This document shows, in pieces, positions 42,141 to 48,697 of a stretch of DNA of 64,000 nucleotides. The DNA comes from Olsenella sp. SW781 (GTDB lineage: Bacteria; Actinomycetota; Coriobacteriia; Coriobacteriales; Atopobiaceae): the NCBI RefSeq assembly GCF_012027725.1, contig NZ_SJOU01000006.1, positions 62,001-126,000 on the forward strand, written 5' to 3'. The notes beneath the pieces are model-generated. The model ran no database searches. It saw only the letters and a list, made by a program, of their open reading frames with translations, and was not told the origin of the DNA. Position numbers and translations under genes: made by a program. The number at the start of each line of letters is the position of its first letter. The stretch's first letter is position 1.

Positions 42141-43331
42141 CTACAGCAGGCGCAGCACGCCGCGCACGAGTCGCTCGAAGTCCTCGGCATAGCCGCCCGC
42201 GGCCTCGAGAACGGTCTCGTGGCTCACCGCAGGCGCGCCGGACTCGTTGGCGGCCAGCGTGAGCCCGAGCGCGTTCATGCCCAGCGCACGTGCCATGATG
42301 ACCTCGAGCACCGTGGACATGCCCACGTAGGAGACGCCGAGCGCGCGCAGCGCCGCCACCTCGGCCGGGGTCTCGAAGCAGGGGCCGAGCACGCCCGCGT
42401 AGACGCCCTCCTCCACGGCGATGCCAAGGTCGTCGGCCACGCCGCGCGCGATGGTGCGCAGGTAGGGGGAGTACGCCTCGTTCATGTCCACGAAGGGGCT
42501 CTCAACGTCACGCAGGCCGTCCCACTCGGCGAGCGGGTTGCGCCCGGTGAGGTTGATCTGGTCCGTGAGGATGCCCAGGCCCACGTGCGCCTGGCCGGGC
42601 ACGGCGCCCGTCGCGCAGGCGAAGACGATGTCGCGGCAGCCCAGATGGTGCGCATGGCGCACGAGCGAGGTCACCTCGGCGGCGGAGTAGCCCTGGTAGA
42701 GGTGGATGCGCCCGGGGTAGACCACCACGGGGACGTCGTCGATCGTGCCCACGGTGGCCTCGAAGCGATGCCCCGGCACGGGGCGCGCCGTGGCAGGGAA
42801 GCCGTCGATGTCCTGGTAGTCGATGCGGCGGACCGGGCGCACGAGCGTCCCCAGATGCCCCAGCCCGCTCCCGAGCACGATGGCGACGGGGTGCTCCACG
42901 CTCGGCTTGCAGGCGCGGACGGTGTCCTCGGTGACCATGCAGATCCCCTCCCTCGCGAGCCTGTCGGCAAAGACGCCGCGGCCCGGAACAAGTCTTCCAG
43001 AGTAGGTTCCATCGTAGACGAGTCCGACGCCGCATGACGGGCTCTTTGCCTTGAGCACGGCGAGCGTCGCCCCAGAGCGGGCGACCGAGGCGGCACAGGC
43101 CTCGGCGCCGCGGGCGAACGCCTCCGTCACGTCCTCTCCCGTGGCGAGAAGGACGCGCTCCCCCACCCGCTCGGCCGGGGGCCGGGGACACGGGAGGCCC
43201 GCCGCGCGCTCGGGGCAGACGCGGCAGGCCTCGGTCTTTGACGCCAGCTCTATGACCTCGCCCGCGGGCTTGGCTCCCCCGTCGTAGCGGACGGGCTCGC
43301 CGAGCAGGCAGGCGCTCACGCAGACGCGCAC
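42141..43331 (-). CDS. Fusion of DUF523 (TudS-like thio-base desulfidase) and purine nucleoside phosphorylase
   Basis: About 396 residues from a GTG at 43331. Residues 1-135 match DUF523: CVSACLLGEPVRYDGG, CPERAAGLPCPRPPAERVGE and KAKSPSCGVGLVYDGTYSG, with the cysteines that hold a [4Fe-4S] cluster in TudS desulfidases. The rest is a trimeric-type PNP: AIVLGSGLGHLG, VPGHRFEATVG, VYPGRIHLYQGYSAAEV, AVPGQAHVGLGILTDQINLT, GVYAGVLGPCFETPAEVAAL, GMSTVLEVIMARALGM and LAANESG. One polypeptide would thus cleave nucleosides and remove sulfur from a thiolated base. It begins 10 bp after the SurA-like gene stop and may be cotranscribed with it. The fusion appears intact. Confidence 0.85.
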   Translation of the reverse strand: MRVCVSACLLGEPVRYDGGAKPAGEVIELASKTEACRVCPERAAGLPCPRPPAERVGERVLLATGEDVTEAFARGAEACAASVARSGATLAVLKAKSPSCGVGLVYDGTYSGRLVPGRGVFADRLAREGICMVTEDTVRACKPSVEHPVAIVLGSGLGHLGTLVRPVRRIDYQDIDGFPATARPVPGHRFEATVGTIDDVPVVVYPGRIHLYQGYSAAEVTSLVRHAHHLGCRDIVFACATGAVPGQAHVGLGILTDQINLTGRNPLAEWDGLRDVESPFVDMNEAYSPYLRTIARGVADDLGIAVEEGVYAGVLGPCFETPAEVAALRALGVSYVGMSTVLEVIMARALGMNALGLTLAANESGAPAVSHETVLEAAGGYAEDFERLVRGVLRLL

Positions 43332-43341
43332 GCGCGCCCCG

Positions 43342-44256
43342 CTAGGAGGCCACGAGCGAGCCAACCTGGACGGTGGCGTTGGAGAGCAGGTTCCTCGTGT
43401 AGGCGACCCACTCCTCGCTCACCTGCGTGGCCACCTCGGAGTAGTTGTTCGACGCCACCTGATAGGCCGCCTCCGCCGCGGCGTAGGTGGCGGAGTCGTT
43501 GGTGATCTCGTAGCTCGAGAGCGTGGCGTAGTAGTCGCCGTCCTGGCGCGCCCAGGTGCCCGCCTCGGAGTCCCACTCGTCGCCAAGAAGGCCGATGATG
43601 TAGCTCGCGTAGTCGGCCGTCGGGGTGTCCTCCGCGCCCTCCTCGGGCTCGGTCGGCGCCGTCGGCACATCGGGCAGCGGCGTGGAGACCACCGAGTCGC
43701 GCAGCTTGGACATCGTCGCGGAGTCGGCGATGGTCGCCTTTGCGATCTCCTCGTCGATGCCGTAGTTGCTCGCGATGGTGGCGTAGTCGCTCGTGCCGAA
43801 CATCTGCTCGGCGAAGGCGGCCACCTCGTCGTCCGAGACCGTGACGCCCTGCGCGGCGGCGTCGGCCAGGACCACGGCGTTCTGGGCGTAGGCGACGACG
43901 TCGCTCGCGACGGGCACGTTGTAGGTGCCGTCCTCGTTGGCGGCGTCCTCGACGGCGGAGTTCTGCTCGATGACCTCGCGCGCGGTGATGTTGGTCGTCT
44001 GGCCGTTGTAGGTGTAGGTGGCGATGGTGCTGTCGAGCTCGTCGGCCGAGAGCGTCGTCTTGCCCTGGAGCGCCACGCCGGCGGGGCTGGACGTCGCGGA
44101 CGTCCCTCCGATCAGGAAGTGGCCGCAGAGCACGCCCACCACGAGCGCGACCACGCAGATGGCCACCCACGCCGGGGTGCCGAGGCCCCGGCCCTTCCCG
44201 TCGGCGGCCGAGAACGGCGTGTTCTTCTCGCCCGCGGTGCTGTTCTTGTCTGCCAT
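43342..44256 (-). CDS. Membrane-anchored SurA/PrsA-N-like chaperone
   Basis: A 304-residue protein from ATG 44256 after GAGGGGAGACCC. One membrane helix lies at about 30-52 (PAWVAICVVALVVGVLCGHF). The outer part has the SurA-N-like helical pattern: NITAREVIEQNSAVEDAANE, YAQNAVVLADAAAQGVTVSD, DEVAAFAEQMFGTSDYATIA. No PPIase domain is seen; the region 195-304 is helical and ends VQVGSLVAS. It probably assists folding of exported proteins, similar to the N-domain of PrsA/SurA. Substrates unknown. Confidence 0.75.
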   Translation of the reverse strand: MADKNSTAGEKNTPFSAADGKGRGLGTPAWVAICVVALVVGVLCGHFLIGGTSATSSPAGVALQGKTTLSADELDSTIATYTYNGQTTNITAREVIEQNSAVEDAANEDGTYNVPVASDVVAYAQNAVVLADAAAQGVTVSDDEVAAFAEQMFGTSDYATIASNYGIDEEIAKATIADSATMSKLRDSVVSTPLPDVPTAPTEPEEGAEDTPTADYASYIIGLLGDEWDSEAGTWARQDGDYYATLSSYEITNDSATYAAAEAAYQVASNNYSEVATQVSEEWVAYTRNLLSNATVQVGSLVAS

Positions 44257-44357
44257 GGGTCTCCCCTCACGTCGGCCGCGCCCCATGGCGCGGCCCCAGT
44301 CGGTCAATCCGTCTGATTCTAACCCCGTGCGCAGGCGCTCCGCGCAGGGCCCACAAG

Positions 44358-44921
44358 CTATGAAAGAGCCTGAATGATCTCCGCCGAGAAGGACTTGATG
44401 TAGCCCGAGCCGCTCTCGGAGTCGAACTTCACGCGCGCGGCGAGCGCCTTCCTCGTGGCGTCGGAGGCGTTCCCCTGGGCGAGGGCGAGCAGCGCGGCGA
44501 GCATGTCGCGGTACTCGGCGTCACCGTGGTAGCACTGGATGGCCTCGTCGATGAGAGGCCAGACCTCGTCGGAGCGCTCGGGGGAGCTCGCGCCGAGGCG
44601 GCACAGGAAGACGAAGGCGGCGAGCCGCACCGTGGCCGACCCGTCGTCGAAGAGCGACGCCTCGGCTCCGTCGAAGGCGCCCGTCACGCTGTCCGGGTCC
44701 TTCTCGGCGATGGAGGAAAGGGCGTCGAGCACCTCCCAGCGCGTCTGCGCCTCGGGGCGGAAGAGCGCGTCCACGAGCGCGTCGACGTGCGGCAGGAGCG
44801 TCTCGGGCTGGCTGCGCGCCACGAGCGCGAGCGTGTGCGCGACCTCCTGGCGGCGGCGCCTGCTCGCGCCGGAGAGCTCCTCGACGAGGCCGGAGACCTC
44901 GGTAGCTGCGGTATCTGCCAT
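44358..44921 (-). CDS. HEAT-repeat protein (187 aa)
   Basis: An all-helical protein from ATG 44921. Repeating helix pairs such as RRRRQEVAHTLALVARSQPE, VDALFRPEAQTRWEVLDALS and SATVRLAAFVFLCRLGASSP, AEYRDMLAALLALAQGNASD fit HEAT/armadillo repeats. No active-site motif; a scaffold role is likely. The partner is unknown. It is 31 bp downstream of the NYN gene on the same strand, so the two are probably an operon. Confidence 0.7.
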   Translation of the reverse strand: MADTAATEVSGLVEELSGASRRRRQEVAHTLALVARSQPETLLPHVDALVDALFRPEAQTRWEVLDALSSIAEKDPDSVTGAFDGAEASLFDDGSATVRLAAFVFLCRLGASSPERSDEVWPLIDEAIQCYHGDAEYRDMLAALLALAQGNASDATRKALAARVKFDSESGSGYIKSFSAEIIQALS

Positions 44922-44952
44922 GTTCCTAACTCCCTTGCTTGTAAAGCCGAAC

Positions 44953-45735
44953 CTACTCGCTGAACCCGTCGACCACGGCCGTGCCGCTCTTGGGGTCCTG
45001 GTGGATGTCTATGAACCCGAGCTTGGACGCCTCGCGCAGGAGCGCCGTGAACGAGCGGTAGCCGTACGACGCCTCAGAGAACTGCGGGCGCTTGCGCTTC
45101 ATGGTGTCCTTGAGGCGCGAGGCGAGGATGAACGAGTCGCTCTCGCGCTGCAGCGCGTCGATGGTCTCGAAGAGCAGCTGGTAGCACGTCTCGCGCTCCT
45201 TGGGGACCTTGCCCTGGAAGTCGGGGATGCCCGGGCCGCGCGTGATGTCCTCGTAGAAGATGAACTCGTCGCAGACCTCGGCCAGAAGGGTGCTCGTCGC
45301 CTCCTTCATGCCCACGCCGATCACGGTCTTGCCGAACTCCTTGAGCTTGGCGACGAGCGGCGAGAAGTCCGAGTCCCCGGAGAGGATGGCGAAGGTGTCG
45401 ATGTGGTCCTTGGTGAGGCAGATCTCCATCGCGTCAACCGCGAGGCGGATGTCCGCGGAGTTCTTGCCGGTGTAGGCGCGGTCGGGAATCTCTATGAGCT
45501 CGATGCCGAGCTCATGGAGGGGCGTGATGGCGTCGGTGAAGCGCTGCCAGTCGCAGTAGGCGCGCTTGGCCGTGATGCGCCCCTTGTCGACGAGGCGCTC
45601 GAGGATGAGCTTCACGTCGGGGAGCGGGCCCGGCTCCTGGTGGCCGTTGCGCTTGCGCCGGCCGGTGCCGAGGGCGAGGTTCTCGTAGTCGATGAGCACC
45701 GCGATGGAGCTCTGGGGAGTGTCAGTTGAGTTCAA
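44953..45735 (-). CDS. NYN-domain (LabA/DUF88) RNase-like protein with LOTUS/OST-HTH domain
   Basis: The 260-residue product starts at TTG 45735. The NYN fold shows AVLIDYENL, the mid-region LGIELIEIPDRAYTGKNSAD, RLAVDAMEICL and FAILSGDSDFSPLVAKLKEF, with four Asp placed as in PIN-like nucleases (IDYEN, KNSADIRLAVDA, GDSDF). Residues 180-255 (LFETIDALQRESDSFILASR, LKDTMKRKRPQFSEASYGYR, SFTALLREA) match an OST-HTH/LOTUS module that binds RNA. A single-protein ribonuclease with an RNA-binding tail is likely; targets unknown. Confidence 0.88.
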   Translation of the reverse strand: MNSTDTPQSSIAVLIDYENLALGTGRRKRNGHQEPGPLPDVKLILERLVDKGRITAKRAYCDWQRFTDAITPLHELGIELIEIPDRAYTGKNSADIRLAVDAMEICLTKDHIDTFAILSGDSDFSPLVAKLKEFGKTVIGVGMKEATSTLLAEVCDEFIFYEDITRGPGIPDFQGKVPKERETCYQLLFETIDALQRESDSFILASRLKDTMKRKRPQFSEASYGYRSFTALLREASKLGFIDIHQDPKSGTAVVDGFSE

Positions 45736-45759
45736 GGCCGATGGTTCTCCTTATGTGAG

Positions 45760-45792
45760 TCGGGGACCGTCCCCGATCTGCAGACATGTCTG
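45760..45792. repeat. Two short palindromes between the dehydrogenase and NYN genes
   Basis: TCGGGGAC-C-GTCCCCGA (45760-45776) and CAGACATGTCTG (45781-45792). The first again contains GGGGAC. They lie 3 bp beyond the dehydrogenase stop side (stop at 45796) and 25 bp from the NYN start. Confidence 0.65.
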
Positions 45793-45795
45793 ATA

Positions 45796-46839
45796 TTACT
45801 CGTGGTGGTGGCAGTGGCACTCATGGCCGTCGCCGTGGTCGTGGTGGTGGCCGCCGCAGCACTCGTGGCCGTCGCCGTGGTCGTGGCCGCAGGAGCACTC
45901 GTGGCCCTCGTCATCGCCCTCTCCCTGGTCGAGGAGCGACCAGTCGAGCCCGGCCGCCTTGCAGGTCTCCTCCTCCTGGTAGAGCAGCGTGAGCGCCTGC
46001 GTGCCCATGCGCGACCCGCCGATCTGGCAGAGCATGTCGAGCAGGGTGAAGGCGGTCTCCGCGCCGGGCAGCGTGATGTCGAGGTCCTCCGAGCGGCGCA
46101 GCGCCAGCGCGACGTCCTTGCGCAGGTGCTCGACGAGGAAGCCCGGCTTGTAGTCGCCCGCGAGGGACTTGGGCGCGAGCGTCCTGGAGGCGCCGGAGCC
46201 GCCGGTGCCGTTGGCGAGCACCTCGAGCATGAGCTCCGGGTCGATGCCGGACTGCTGGGCGAGCGCGAGGGCGTCGGCGTAGCCGACCATGCACGAGACG
46301 AGGCTCACCTGGTTGCAGAGCTTGGCCGTCTGCCCGCCGCCCGGCTGGTCGAAGTAGAAGCGGCGGGACGAGAAGGACTCGAGCACGGGCAGCACGTCCG
46401 CCACGTCCTTCTCGGCGGCGCCGACGATGAGCGTGAGGGTGCCGTCGATCGCGCCCTGCTCGCCGCCCGTGACGGGGCAGTCGAAGGCGTGCTTGTCCTC
46501 GACCTCGGCCGCGTCGTGGATGTCGCGCGCGAGCTCGGGCGAGCTCGTGGTGAGGTCGATGAGCCAGGCGCCCTTCTTGGCGGTGCGGATGAGCCCGTCG
46601 GTGGCGAGGTAGACGTCCTCGACGTCGGTGGGATAGCCGAGCATCGTGAAGACGACGTCGGCGTCTGCGGCGGCCTCGGCGGGGCTGTCCGCCCAGTGCG
46701 CGCCGCGGGCGAGAAGGGCCTCGGCCTTCTCGCGCGTGCGGTTGTGGACGGTGACGTCATAGCCGGCGTCCATGATGTGGCCGGCGATGGGCGCGCCCAT
46801 GATGCCGGTCCCGATGAAGGCGATCTTCCTGATCTGCAA
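45796..46839 (-). CDS. Beta-hydroxyacid dehydrogenase (GarR/GlxR-like) with His/Cys-rich tail
   Basis: About 347 residues from TTG 46839 behind AGAAAGGAACACCC. The NAD(P) fold is IAFIGTGIMGAPIAGHIMDA; next come FDCPVTGGEQGAIDGTLTL, GGGQTAKLCNQ (catalytic Lys) and FLVEHLRKDVALAL, the usual family signatures. It should reduce a semialdehyde such as tartronate semialdehyde. The unusual part is the last 35 residues: blocks of HECSCGHDHGDG, HECCGGHHHDHGDG, HECHCHHHE, with about 14 His and 5 Cys. This looks like a Zn/Ni-binding tail as in metallochaperones. Confidence 0.85.
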   Translation of the reverse strand: MQIRKIAFIGTGIMGAPIAGHIMDAGYDVTVHNRTREKAEALLARGAHWADSPAEAAADADVVFTMLGYPTDVEDVYLATDGLIRTAKKGAWLIDLTTSSPELARDIHDAAEVEDKHAFDCPVTGGEQGAIDGTLTLIVGAAEKDVADVLPVLESFSSRRFYFDQPGGGQTAKLCNQVSLVSCMVGYADALALAQQSGIDPELMLEVLANGTGGSGASRTLAPKSLAGDYKPGFLVEHLRKDVALALRRSEDLDITLPGAETAFTLLDMLCQIGGSRMGTQALTLLYQEEETCKAAGLDWSLLDQGEGDDEGHECSCGHDHGDGHECCGGHHHDHGDGHECHCHHHE

Positions 46840-46862
46840 GGGTGTTCCTTTCTGGATGGGCG

Positions 46863-46929
46863 TGCCACTGGCGTCAGGTTCGTCTGGCACGCGCGCCGCG
46901 CGTGCCAGACGAACCTGACGCCAGTGGCA
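46863..46929. repeat. Perfect 67-bp palindrome (33-bp arms) with CTGACGCC...GTGGCA
   Basis: Arms TGCCACTGGCGTCAGGTTCG then TCTGGCACGCGCG pair exactly around 46896. It is 10 bp beyond the degV stop and 23 bp upstream of the dehydrogenase start. The TGCCACTGGCGTCAGGTT part matches the module in 29413-29523. Confidence 0.92.
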
Positions 46930-46939
46930 TACCTCCTGC

Positions 46940-47986
46940 CTACTGCCCGCGGACCTTGCGGGCGATGCGGTCGGTGAACGAGAGGGACTCGCGGCGGTCC
47001 TTGCCCCAGAAGAGCAGCGCCACCATGCCGGGCCCCACGTGGGCGCCGATGACCGGGCCCACGGAGCTGTAGATGATGGGGACGTCGGCGCAGCCGGGCT
47101 CCTTGCGGATCTGGTCGGCGAGCCAGAGCGCGTCCTTCTCGGCGTCCGCCGAGACGATGGCCATGGGGAGCTTCTCGTCCCCGCCCTCGGCGCCGAGGTA
47201 GTTGGCGCGGAAGTCCGCGATGATGGCGCGCAGGGCCTTCTTGCGGCCGCGGCACATGCCGCGCAGCGTGAGGGCGCCGTTGGTGTCATAGGAGAGCTCG
47301 GGCTTGATGTCGAGCTTTCCGCCCACCGTGGCGGCCGCCGGCGGGATGCGCCCGCCGCGGGCGAGCGCGTCGAAGGAGTCGAGCGTGAAGTAGCCGTGGA
47401 CGTAGTAGCGCGCCTCCTCGGCCCAGGCCACGAGCTCGGTCGCGGTGAGGCCGTTGGCGACCTGTCGCACGGCCTCGATGGCGAGAAGCTCGGCGGCGGC
47501 CGACGGGCAGACGTTGTCGACGACGTGGATCTGGAACTCCGGGTGCGCCTCGCGGACCATGTCCGCCGCCTGGCGCGCTGCGTCGACGCTCGAGGAGAGG
47601 CCGCGCGTGAAGGCCAGGTAGACCGTCGGGGTGCCCTCGGCGGCGGCACGCTCGAAGACCTCGAGGTAGTGGCCCGGCGTGACGGCCGAGGTGGTGACGT
47701 GCTCGCCGGCGCGCATGCGCTCGTAGAACTCGTGCGCGCTCATGGTCTCCCACAGGTCGTCGGCGTGCTCTCCGTCCGACATCACGTAGGGAAACGGGAT
47801 GATCTCCACGCCGAGGGCGCGCGCCACCTCGGGCGCGAAGTCGGCGCAGGAGTCAACGACGAGGTTGACGTTCCCGCGCGCGTGATACGCGCGGCCCAGG
47901 CGCGCGGCCTCCCGCGACGCCTGGGCGTTGGTGTCGACCTCGTTCTCGGCGGCCGTGACCGCCGCGGACTCAGTGCTACTGCTCAT
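46940..47986 (-). CDS. DegV-family fatty acid-binding protein
   Basis: A 348-residue DegV protein: NVNLVVDSCADFAPEVARAL, EIIPFPYVMSDGE, VTTSAVTPGHYLEVFERAAA (the fatty-acid-contacting TSxxTP), FTRGLSSSVDAARQAADMVR, YFTLDSFDALARGGRIPPAA and PIIYSSVGPVIGAHVGPGMV. DegV/FakB proteins present fatty acids to the kinase FakA; fakA is not in this window. An N-terminal extension of about 35 residues is atypical. The ATG at 47986 lies within the end of hpf (11-bp overlap), so translation is coupled. Confidence 0.9.
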   Translation of the reverse strand: MSSSTESAAVTAAENEVDTNAQASREAARLGRAYHARGNVNLVVDSCADFAPEVARALGVEIIPFPYVMSDGEHADDLWETMSAHEFYERMRAGEHVTTSAVTPGHYLEVFERAAAEGTPTVYLAFTRGLSSSVDAARQAADMVREAHPEFQIHVVDNVCPSAAAELLAIEAVRQVANGLTATELVAWAEEARYYVHGYFTLDSFDALARGGRIPPAAATVGGKLDIKPELSYDTNGALTLRGMCRGRKKALRAIIADFRANYLGAEGGDEKLPMAIVSADAEKDALWLADQIRKEPGCADVPIIYSSVGPVIGAHVGPGMVALLFWGKDRRESLSFTDRIARKVRGQ

Positions 47987-48569
47987 TCTCTTCCTCAATC
48001 TTGGGCTTGATGATTCCGTACCCGCCATTCTTTCGATGATAGATGACGTTGACAAGCCCGGTGGTGGCATTGGTGAACACATAGAAATCGTGACCGATGA
48101 GGTCGGTCTGGACGAGCGCCTCCTCCTCGGTCATGGGCAGGAGGTCGACGTACTTCTCGCGGACGAGCTGGTCGTCCTCGGTCTCGTCCTCGGAGGGCTC
48201 GATGAGGGCGGCGAGGTCCTCCTGGGTGACGGCGCCCGTCTTGGCGGCGGCGACGCGCTGACGGCGGTCGATGACGCGCGTCTTGTACTTGCGCAGCTGG
48301 CGGGTGACCTTGTCGGCGGCCTCGTCGATGGCGGCGTACATGTCGTCGGAGCTGGCGACGACGCGGACCACGTTGTCGCGCACGAAGACGGTGACCTCGC
48401 AGGTCTTCCGCTCGGGGTTGGAGGGGTTCTTGTCAACGCGAAGGACGACATCGCAGGTCATGGGCTTGATGTCAAACACCTTGAGGGCGTTGCCGACCTT
48501 CTCCTCCACCTGAGCGCGCAGGGAGTCGGAGACACCTACCTTGCGACCAGAGATCTTGATGTCAACCAT
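47976..48569 (-). CDS. hpf: Long-form ribosome hibernation promoting factor
   Basis: A 197-residue long HPF: the N-terminal domain MVDIKISGRKVGVSDSLRAQ, VEEKVGNALKVFD, CEVTVFVRDNVVRV, MYAAIDEAADKVTRQLRKYK is followed by a linker and the C-terminal dimerisation domain (VREKYVDLLPMTEEEALVQT, GHDFYVFTNATTGLVNVIYH, RKNGGYGIIKP). It binds the 30S subunit and joins 70S particles into 100S dimers in stationary phase. The ATG at 48569 follows AAGGAGGCAAGC. Confidence 0.95.
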   Translation of the reverse strand: MVDIKISGRKVGVSDSLRAQVEEKVGNALKVFDIKPMTCDVVLRVDKNPSNPERKTCEVTVFVRDNVVRVVASSDDMYAAIDEAADKVTRQLRKYKTRVIDRRQRVAAAKTGAVTQEDLAALIEPSEDETEDDQLVREKYVDLLPMTEEEALVQTDLIGHDFYVFTNATTGLVNVIYHRKNGGYGIIKPKIEEENEQ

Positions 48570-48697
48570 GCTTGCCTCCTTACGATTGCCTTGGACGGGG
48601 CGAATGGGCGCCGGCGTCCTTACGACTCCTATACCCAAAAGCGTCGCGCGCGTTGCGCCGGGCATCGGCGGGCGCGCGGGAGGGGCGAGCGGACCCG

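Follow-up and report, generated by a model that had tools for sequence, protein, structure and literature searches.

A TudS desulfidase domain and a trimeric-type purine nucleoside phosphorylase on one polypeptide in two families of the Coriobacteriales

The TudS enzymes (DUF523, PF04463) recycle 4-thiouracil and 4-thiouridine, and their kcat/Km for 4-thio-UMP is more than 2000 times that for 4-thiouracil, according to the accessible text of PMC10611767. The same text assigns the cluster ligands to Cys10, Cys43 and Cys104, catalysis to Glu45, Ser101 and Ser103, and phosphate binding to Arg17. Single-domain proteins make up 58.9% of TudS architectures and a further 40.1% are joined to DUF1722, the partner domain that directs RudS to tRNA (PMC11417400, accessible text); by subtraction, about 1% of TudS proteins is left for other architectures, which is where a fusion of TudS with a purine nucleoside phosphorylase (PNP) would fall. 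TudS is also reported to protect RNA from 4-thiouracil in Clostridioides difficile, which gives the family relevance for the gut (cited in the accessible part of PMC12210855). No description of a TudS-PNP fusion was found in the open-licence PMC literature; the available text of PMC13296781 contains both 'DUF523' and 'nucleoside phosphorylase', but the former solely in the title of a reference, and both terms also occur in PMC12709175.

The stretch of DNA analysed here (the window) comprises 64,000 nucleotides of Olsenella sp. SW781. One of its genes has the following parts:

42141..43331, minus strand: whole fused gene, TudS (DUF523) and trimeric-type PNP, GTG start, 396 amino acids
42924..43325, minus strand: TudS desulfidase domain, residues 3-136 (PF04463)
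42891..42923, minus strand: short joint between the domains, residues 137-147 (from the Pfam limits and the start of the PRK08202 match)
42150..42890, minus strand: PNP domain, residues 148-394 (PF01048)

When the open frame was read, it contained no internal stops. In Pfam, residues 3-136 matched PF04463 (E 5e-40; score 137.2 bits, cut-off 34.7), covering positions 1-140 of the 141 in the profile, and residues 148-394 matched PF01048 (E 8.1e-36; score 124 bits, cut-off 25.1). The TudS crystal chain 6z92_A aligned with residues 2-139, and solved PNP chains (8swu, 3la8 and others) with about 147-394. A preliminary description of this DNA had placed a single TudS and PNP protein at 42141-43331 with a boundary at about residue 135, and both its coordinates and its boundary were right. 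The match to the PNP model PRK08202 starts only at profile position 13, so the TudS domain occupies the place of the N-terminal helix region of PNP; that region of ordinary PNPs is largely absent from the fused protein. An AlphaFold model, built from an alignment of the window's protein and 16 of 28 named loci (17 fused proteins), had a mean pLDDT of 55.3 and a pTM of 0.41. Its TudS part reached 66-92 in blocks of ten residues up to residue 100, and its PNP half lay mostly below 60, too low to place the two active sites relative to each other.

The preliminary description had proposed a survey of the distribution of the fusion; this survey showed an intact full-length fusion in 52 of 197 sampled genomes of the order, with matches running from residue 1-5 to 387-396. 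These genomes fell into two families: the window's own family, Atopobiaceae (f1; 42 of 50 genomes), and f10, probably Coriobacteriaceae (10 of 47 genomes). In one further genome (G183) the fusion is cut by a contig end. Of the remaining f1 genomes, 3 were PNP-only and 4 were TudS-only, labels that refer to the gene at the fusion locus and not to the whole genome. Among the remaining f10 genomes, 5 were PNP-only, 29 had a free TudS without a trimeric PNP (E <= 1e-8) and 2 had neither. Outside f1 and f10, none of the matches listed across 396 genomes of the phylum (E <= 1e-30) was an intact fusion, and eight PNPs from outside the order looked ordinary and had no TudS in their flanks of up to 4 kb. 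These frequencies bear on whether two genes might have been joined through a missed stop, as an artefact of annotation or assembly. One genome (G028) fits such a reading in that its fused frame is broken (L119, around 4480), with a run of T one base shorter than in L018, owing to either a sequencing error or a true mutation. The artefact is nonetheless refuted by the uninterrupted full-length frames in 52 of the 197 genomes and by the 28 named records in which its relatives occur, and we regard its probability as negligible. Taken together, these data confirm that the fusion is a real single protein in which both domains are complete.

Two genes upstream of the fusion mark the locus:

43342..44307, minus strand: weakly SurA-like protein, upstream neighbour (below the Pfam cut-off)
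44358..44921, minus strand: HEAT-like repeat protein, upstream (below the Pfam cut-off)

Of the 51 fused loci examined, 50 had both genes upstream, the exception (L107) being cut short by its contig. Within the window, the order of genes conserved upstream of the fusion spans 43342-48665 and includes hibernation factor, DegV-like, dehydrogenase, NYN-domain, HEAT-like and SurA-like genes, the first three of these names having been read from the sequence and not from a family search. The SurA-like and HEAT-like genes were likewise found upstream of the PNP-only copies L111-L117 (7/7; the exception is L118) and of every TudS-only copy (4/4), which argues that a single locus is where halves were lost or had never been joined. 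This locus accounts for 8 PNP-only and 4 TudS-only genomes in total, and all save one PNP-only copy are clearly syntenic with the fusion. In the PNP tree the PNP-only copies nest inside the fused clade, and they retain residues of the joint (for example 'CKPSVEHP' or 'CKPSMEHP'). In G140 (L120:3752-4492), what is left of PNP behind TudS is a shrunken stretch of about 100 residues, which PF01048 does not recognise. A placement of the four TudS-only genomes outside the fused clade was not rejected in the TudS tree (p-AU 0.458), so PNP loss in these genomes rests mainly on the shared locus. On the evidence of sequence and gene order, loss of one or the other half in place has apparently occurred several times. 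In f10, the free TudS genes occupy other loci, with a SurA-like or HEAT gene beside 0 of 13, and form a separate branch. (Excluded from the trees were 19 of the 28 named loci, together with eight repeat loci and fragments of <115 or <190 residues.)

Two genomes of a third family, f9, carry a TudS gene next to a PNP-like gene on the same strand (L126:1838-3211 and L127:3797-5350), with 72 and 180 bases separating the matched parts of the two genes, and a HEAT-like gene lies upstream of both pairs (2/2). The f9 PNP-like protein is sister to the fused clade in the PNP tree (100/99; branch length 1.64) and shares with it a two-residue insert (7 residues as against 5 in 23/23 ordinary PNPs) together with Y205 and Q213. 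The f9 TudS falls among free-standing TudS in the TudS tree (86/83); a tree in which fused, TudS-only and adjacent TudS were held together was not rejected (p-AU 0.544) and was 2.57 log units better. At the pocket positions corresponding to E320 and M338 of the window's protein the f9 proteins have Leu, and at N362 they have Ser or His; one of the two genomes (G009) also carries an ordinary PNP (L145) besides the PNP-like gene. The simplest account is probably that the genes were neighbours first and fused later, with the split of an older fusion as an alternative origin of the f9 arrangement. The adjacency indicates that the link between TudS and PNP is real, and, together with the lasting fusion in two families, it suggests a tie closer than plain co-expression.

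To examine each half residue by residue, 73 distinct fused proteins from 81 loci were compared, eight identical sequences having been dropped, the split gene L119 left out and one N-terminus being cut by a contig end. In the alignment, C8, C39, C100, E41, S97, S99 and R15 of the fused protein correspond to C10, C43, C104, E45, S101, S103 and R17 of TudS_A. The preliminary description had named loss of the cluster cysteines in orthologues as the finding that would speak against it. Such loss was looked for and not seen: C8 and C39 were present in 72/72 and C100 in 73/73 of the distinct fused proteins. The catalytic residues were kept almost as strictly (E41 72/72, S97 73/73, S99 69/73 with Ala in 3 and Thr in 1), and the window's own protein (L001) has all three. 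The phosphate arginine R15 was kept in 72/72, and 17 of 41 free TudS of the order have Lys at this position; the f10 free TudS at another locus (e.g. L131-L143) are among those that carry Lys here. By the rule used, only four alignment positions differ between the fused TudS half and free TudS of the order, and three of them are near the joint (61 fused, 41 free, 2 adjacent and 4 TudS-only rows). The small number of differing positions and the kept phosphate arginine lead us to expect ordinary TudS chemistry.

The residues of the PNP half were matched to Ser33, Arg84, His86, Tyr88, Phe159, Phe200, Glu201, Met219, Asn243 and His257 in human PNP numbering. At these places the window's protein has S155, R208, H210, Y212, F280, F319, E320, M338, N362 and H371. 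R208, H210, Y212 and F280 were each present in 73/73 distinct fused proteins, E320 in 72/73, M338 in 68/73, N362 in 71/73 and H371 in 72/73. The S155 position was Ser in 46 and Thr in 27, and the F319 position Phe in 59, Tyr in 12 and Thr in 2. Individual proteins depart from this pattern: L102 (G090) has E320P, N362H and H371R, and L092 (G185) has N362H. Within the genus, the median dN/dS over 66 pairs was 0.35 (TudS half) and 0.16 (PNP half), so that purifying selection acts on both; over 16 distant loci the medians were 0.31 and 0.32, from pairs of which 17/120 (TudS) and 23/120 (PNP) could not be computed. That the PNP half might serve mainly as a trimeric scaffold or regulator of TudS, with weak or no catalysis, would fit the substitutions in L102 and L092 and the retention of TudS with a PNP remnant in G140. 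It is difficult to reconcile with the invariance of R208, H210 and Y212 and near-invariance of E320 and H371, with a within-genus rate of evolution that is lower for the PNP half than for the TudS half, and with the 8 genomes whose gene has retained PNP but not TudS. We consider a mainly structural role highly improbable.

The PNP half stands apart from the ordinary PNPs of the order. On PRK08202 the window's protein passed narrowly (226.9 bits against a cut-off of 218); fused PNP halves ranged over 226.9-253.4 bits and ordinary PNPs of the order over 311-347, leaving the fused halves ~60-120 bits lower. The window's protein fell under the cut-off of TIGR01697 (inosine/guanosine/xanthosine phosphorylase; 192.2 bits against 197.1), which its relatives L099 (214), L111 (203) and L113 (223.4) passed. 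On TIGR01700, the PNPH equivalog specific for inosine and guanosine, it scored 178.9 bits against a cut-off of 293.35, as compared with 265.8-296.6 bits for four ordinary PNPs of the order, and it likewise stayed below the cut-off of TIGR01698. In an alignment of 69 fused-clade rows (62 fused, 7 PNP-only), 23 ordinary and 2 adjacent rows, with L118 and L119 left out, 14 positions had a fixed state in the fused clade that differs from that of ordinary PNPs of the order; two belong to the joint, and one is gapped in the fused sequences. Of the 14, several adjoin the phosphate and ribose residues: GHxF where ordinary PNPs have GHxG, YPGR for MQGR, YQG for YEG and, ahead of the A-T/A-G motif, C in place of N. 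The TudS-linked PNP half therefore appears to depart from ordinary PNPs near the active site; this divergence, together with the pocket changes in f9, makes an altered substrate of the TudS-linked PNP subfamily possible.

Copy number sets these halves in the context of the whole genome. No second TudS was found in the genomes with an intact fusion (0/52), which suggests that the fused TudS replaces the free one. The window's genome has two PF01048 genes, the fused gene and an MTA/SAH nucleosidase; no pyrimidine-nucleoside phosphorylase (PYNP_C) was found in it, and it also carries one nucleoside hydrolase, purH and ThiI. The fusion thus joins the genome's only TudS to the only nucleoside phosphorylase found there, so that the housekeeping roles of both would fall to it. 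ThiI is the maker of s4U, and its presence in 191/197 genomes of the order indicates that the tRNA of these bacteria probably carries 4-thiouridine, making a source of substrate available. Where one half is missing from the locus, a free version sometimes substitutes: a free TudS is encoded elsewhere in 4 of the 8 PNP-only genomes, and an ordinary PNP in 2 of the 4 TudS-only ones. A missing pyrimidine phosphorylase was also considered as the reason for the fusion and was rejected, since PYNP_C is present in 23/61 genomes of the family and co-occurs with an intact fusion in, for example, G043, G033 and G096.

A shift of the PNP half to pyrimidine or thiopyrimidine nucleosides, such that it would split 4-thiouridine, or uridine, before or after desulfuration, could account for several of these features. 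Y205, Q213 and the two-residue insert, near the phosphate/ribose region, are common to the fused clade and the adjacent pairs, and the f9 pairs have changed all three of the pocket positions E320, M338 and N362. The window's genome lacks PYNP_C and a second PF01048 phosphorylase, and there is a precedent in E. coli PNP, which accepts some thiopyrimidine nucleosides according to the accessible text of PMC5238616. By contrast, the 6-oxopurine residues are nearly invariant in the fused proteins, the one nucleoside hydrolase of the window's genome also argues against such a shift, and PYNP_C is found in fusion-bearing genomes as well, so its lack is not tied to the fusion. We judge this shift distinctly unlikely. 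A broader and more speculative proposal, which we rate as unlikely, is that the TudS-linked PNPs are a separate subfamily, first neighbours of TudS and then on one chain with it, which would have shifted to thiolated or pyrimidine nucleosides, with desulfuration and glycosidic cleavage forming a new two-step pathway.

The preliminary description had gone further, proposing that the two halves are coupled, so that they would successively desulfurate and split the same thiolated nucleoside, such as 6-thioinosine or 6-thioguanosine, with relevance for thiopurine drugs. PNPs accept 6-thiopurine nucleosides, the purine-pocket residues are kept (E320 72/73, N362 71/73), and three families have the two halves paired at a single locus; the link between TudS and PNP is real, as the side-by-side genes of f9 and the shared locus indicate, whereas successive action on a single nucleoside lacks support. 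The PNP family does not accept nucleotides, the halves have been lost separately, and we know of no common natural thione purine nucleoside. The TudS substrates reported in the accessible text of PMC10611767 are thiouracil compounds, 4-thio-UMP being the best of them, and the word purine is absent from its main text; the arginine that would bind the phosphate of such a nucleotide is kept in all 72 fused proteins in which it could be scored. The available part of a review of gut thiopurine metabolism (PMC12959226) gives xanthine dehydrogenase and HPRT, and not a desulfidase. Nor did the suggested drug connection find support, as the fusion spans two bacterial families and no recent drug can explain it. 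A coupled thionucleoside enzyme is, in our view, very unlikely.

The reading that we favour, with moderate confidence, is that the fusion is a bifunctional salvage enzyme in which one chain performs two parallel jobs. By analogy with characterised TudS, the N-terminal domain would bind a [4Fe-4S] cluster through Cys8, Cys39 and Cys100, and the free iron of the cluster would take the sulfur from a 4-thiouridine compound. This substrate would most likely be 4-thio-UMP or 4-thiouridine released when the cell degrades its own tRNA, or else imported 4-thiouracil. Glu41 and Ser97/Ser99 would then help water to replace the sulfur, yielding a uridine compound and sulfide. The C-terminal domain, like its relatives, which are trimers, would convert a purine nucleoside and phosphate into a base and ribose 1-phosphate; because the 6-oxopurine residues are kept and PNP takes nucleosides, cleavage of inosine and guanosine would be expected. 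Both reactions would feed RNA turnover and salvage in parallel. We infer that there is no obligatory hand-over between them, which is unlikely given that the halves are lost separately and a free version sometimes substitutes. The benefit of the fusion may lie in expression from one gene and perhaps in a trimeric carrier for TudS. Against this reading, 29 of the 47 f10 genomes keep a free TudS without a trimeric PNP, so the pair is not needed everywhere; the divergence of the PNP half, the adjacency in f9 and the persistence of the fusion in two families weigh against it as well.

Compared with the known systems, the N-terminal half is the same domain as stand-alone TudS (DUF523, PF04463; PDB 6z92-6z96), with the three Cys, the Glu, the two Ser and the phosphate Arg, but only the fusion has a C-terminal PNP; TudS_A and TudS_P are described as monomers (PMC10611767, accessible text). 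The C-terminal half resembles trimeric PNP (PRK08202/TIGR01697; PDB 8swu, 3la8) in family sequence and catalytic residues, and differs from it in that TudS largely replaces the N-terminal helix region and in the 14 fixed differences. RudS (TudS-DUF1722), the tRNA 4-thiouridine desulfidase, likewise carries TudS and a second domain on one chain, but in the fused protein Pfam finds just PF04463 and PF01048, and no DUF1722, so it is not a RudS. The locus offers a clear series from neighbouring genes through fusion to the in-place loss of either half, and, as the RudS partner changes the target of TudS, the PNP partner provides a second case in which to ask whether partner domains steer the desulfidase.
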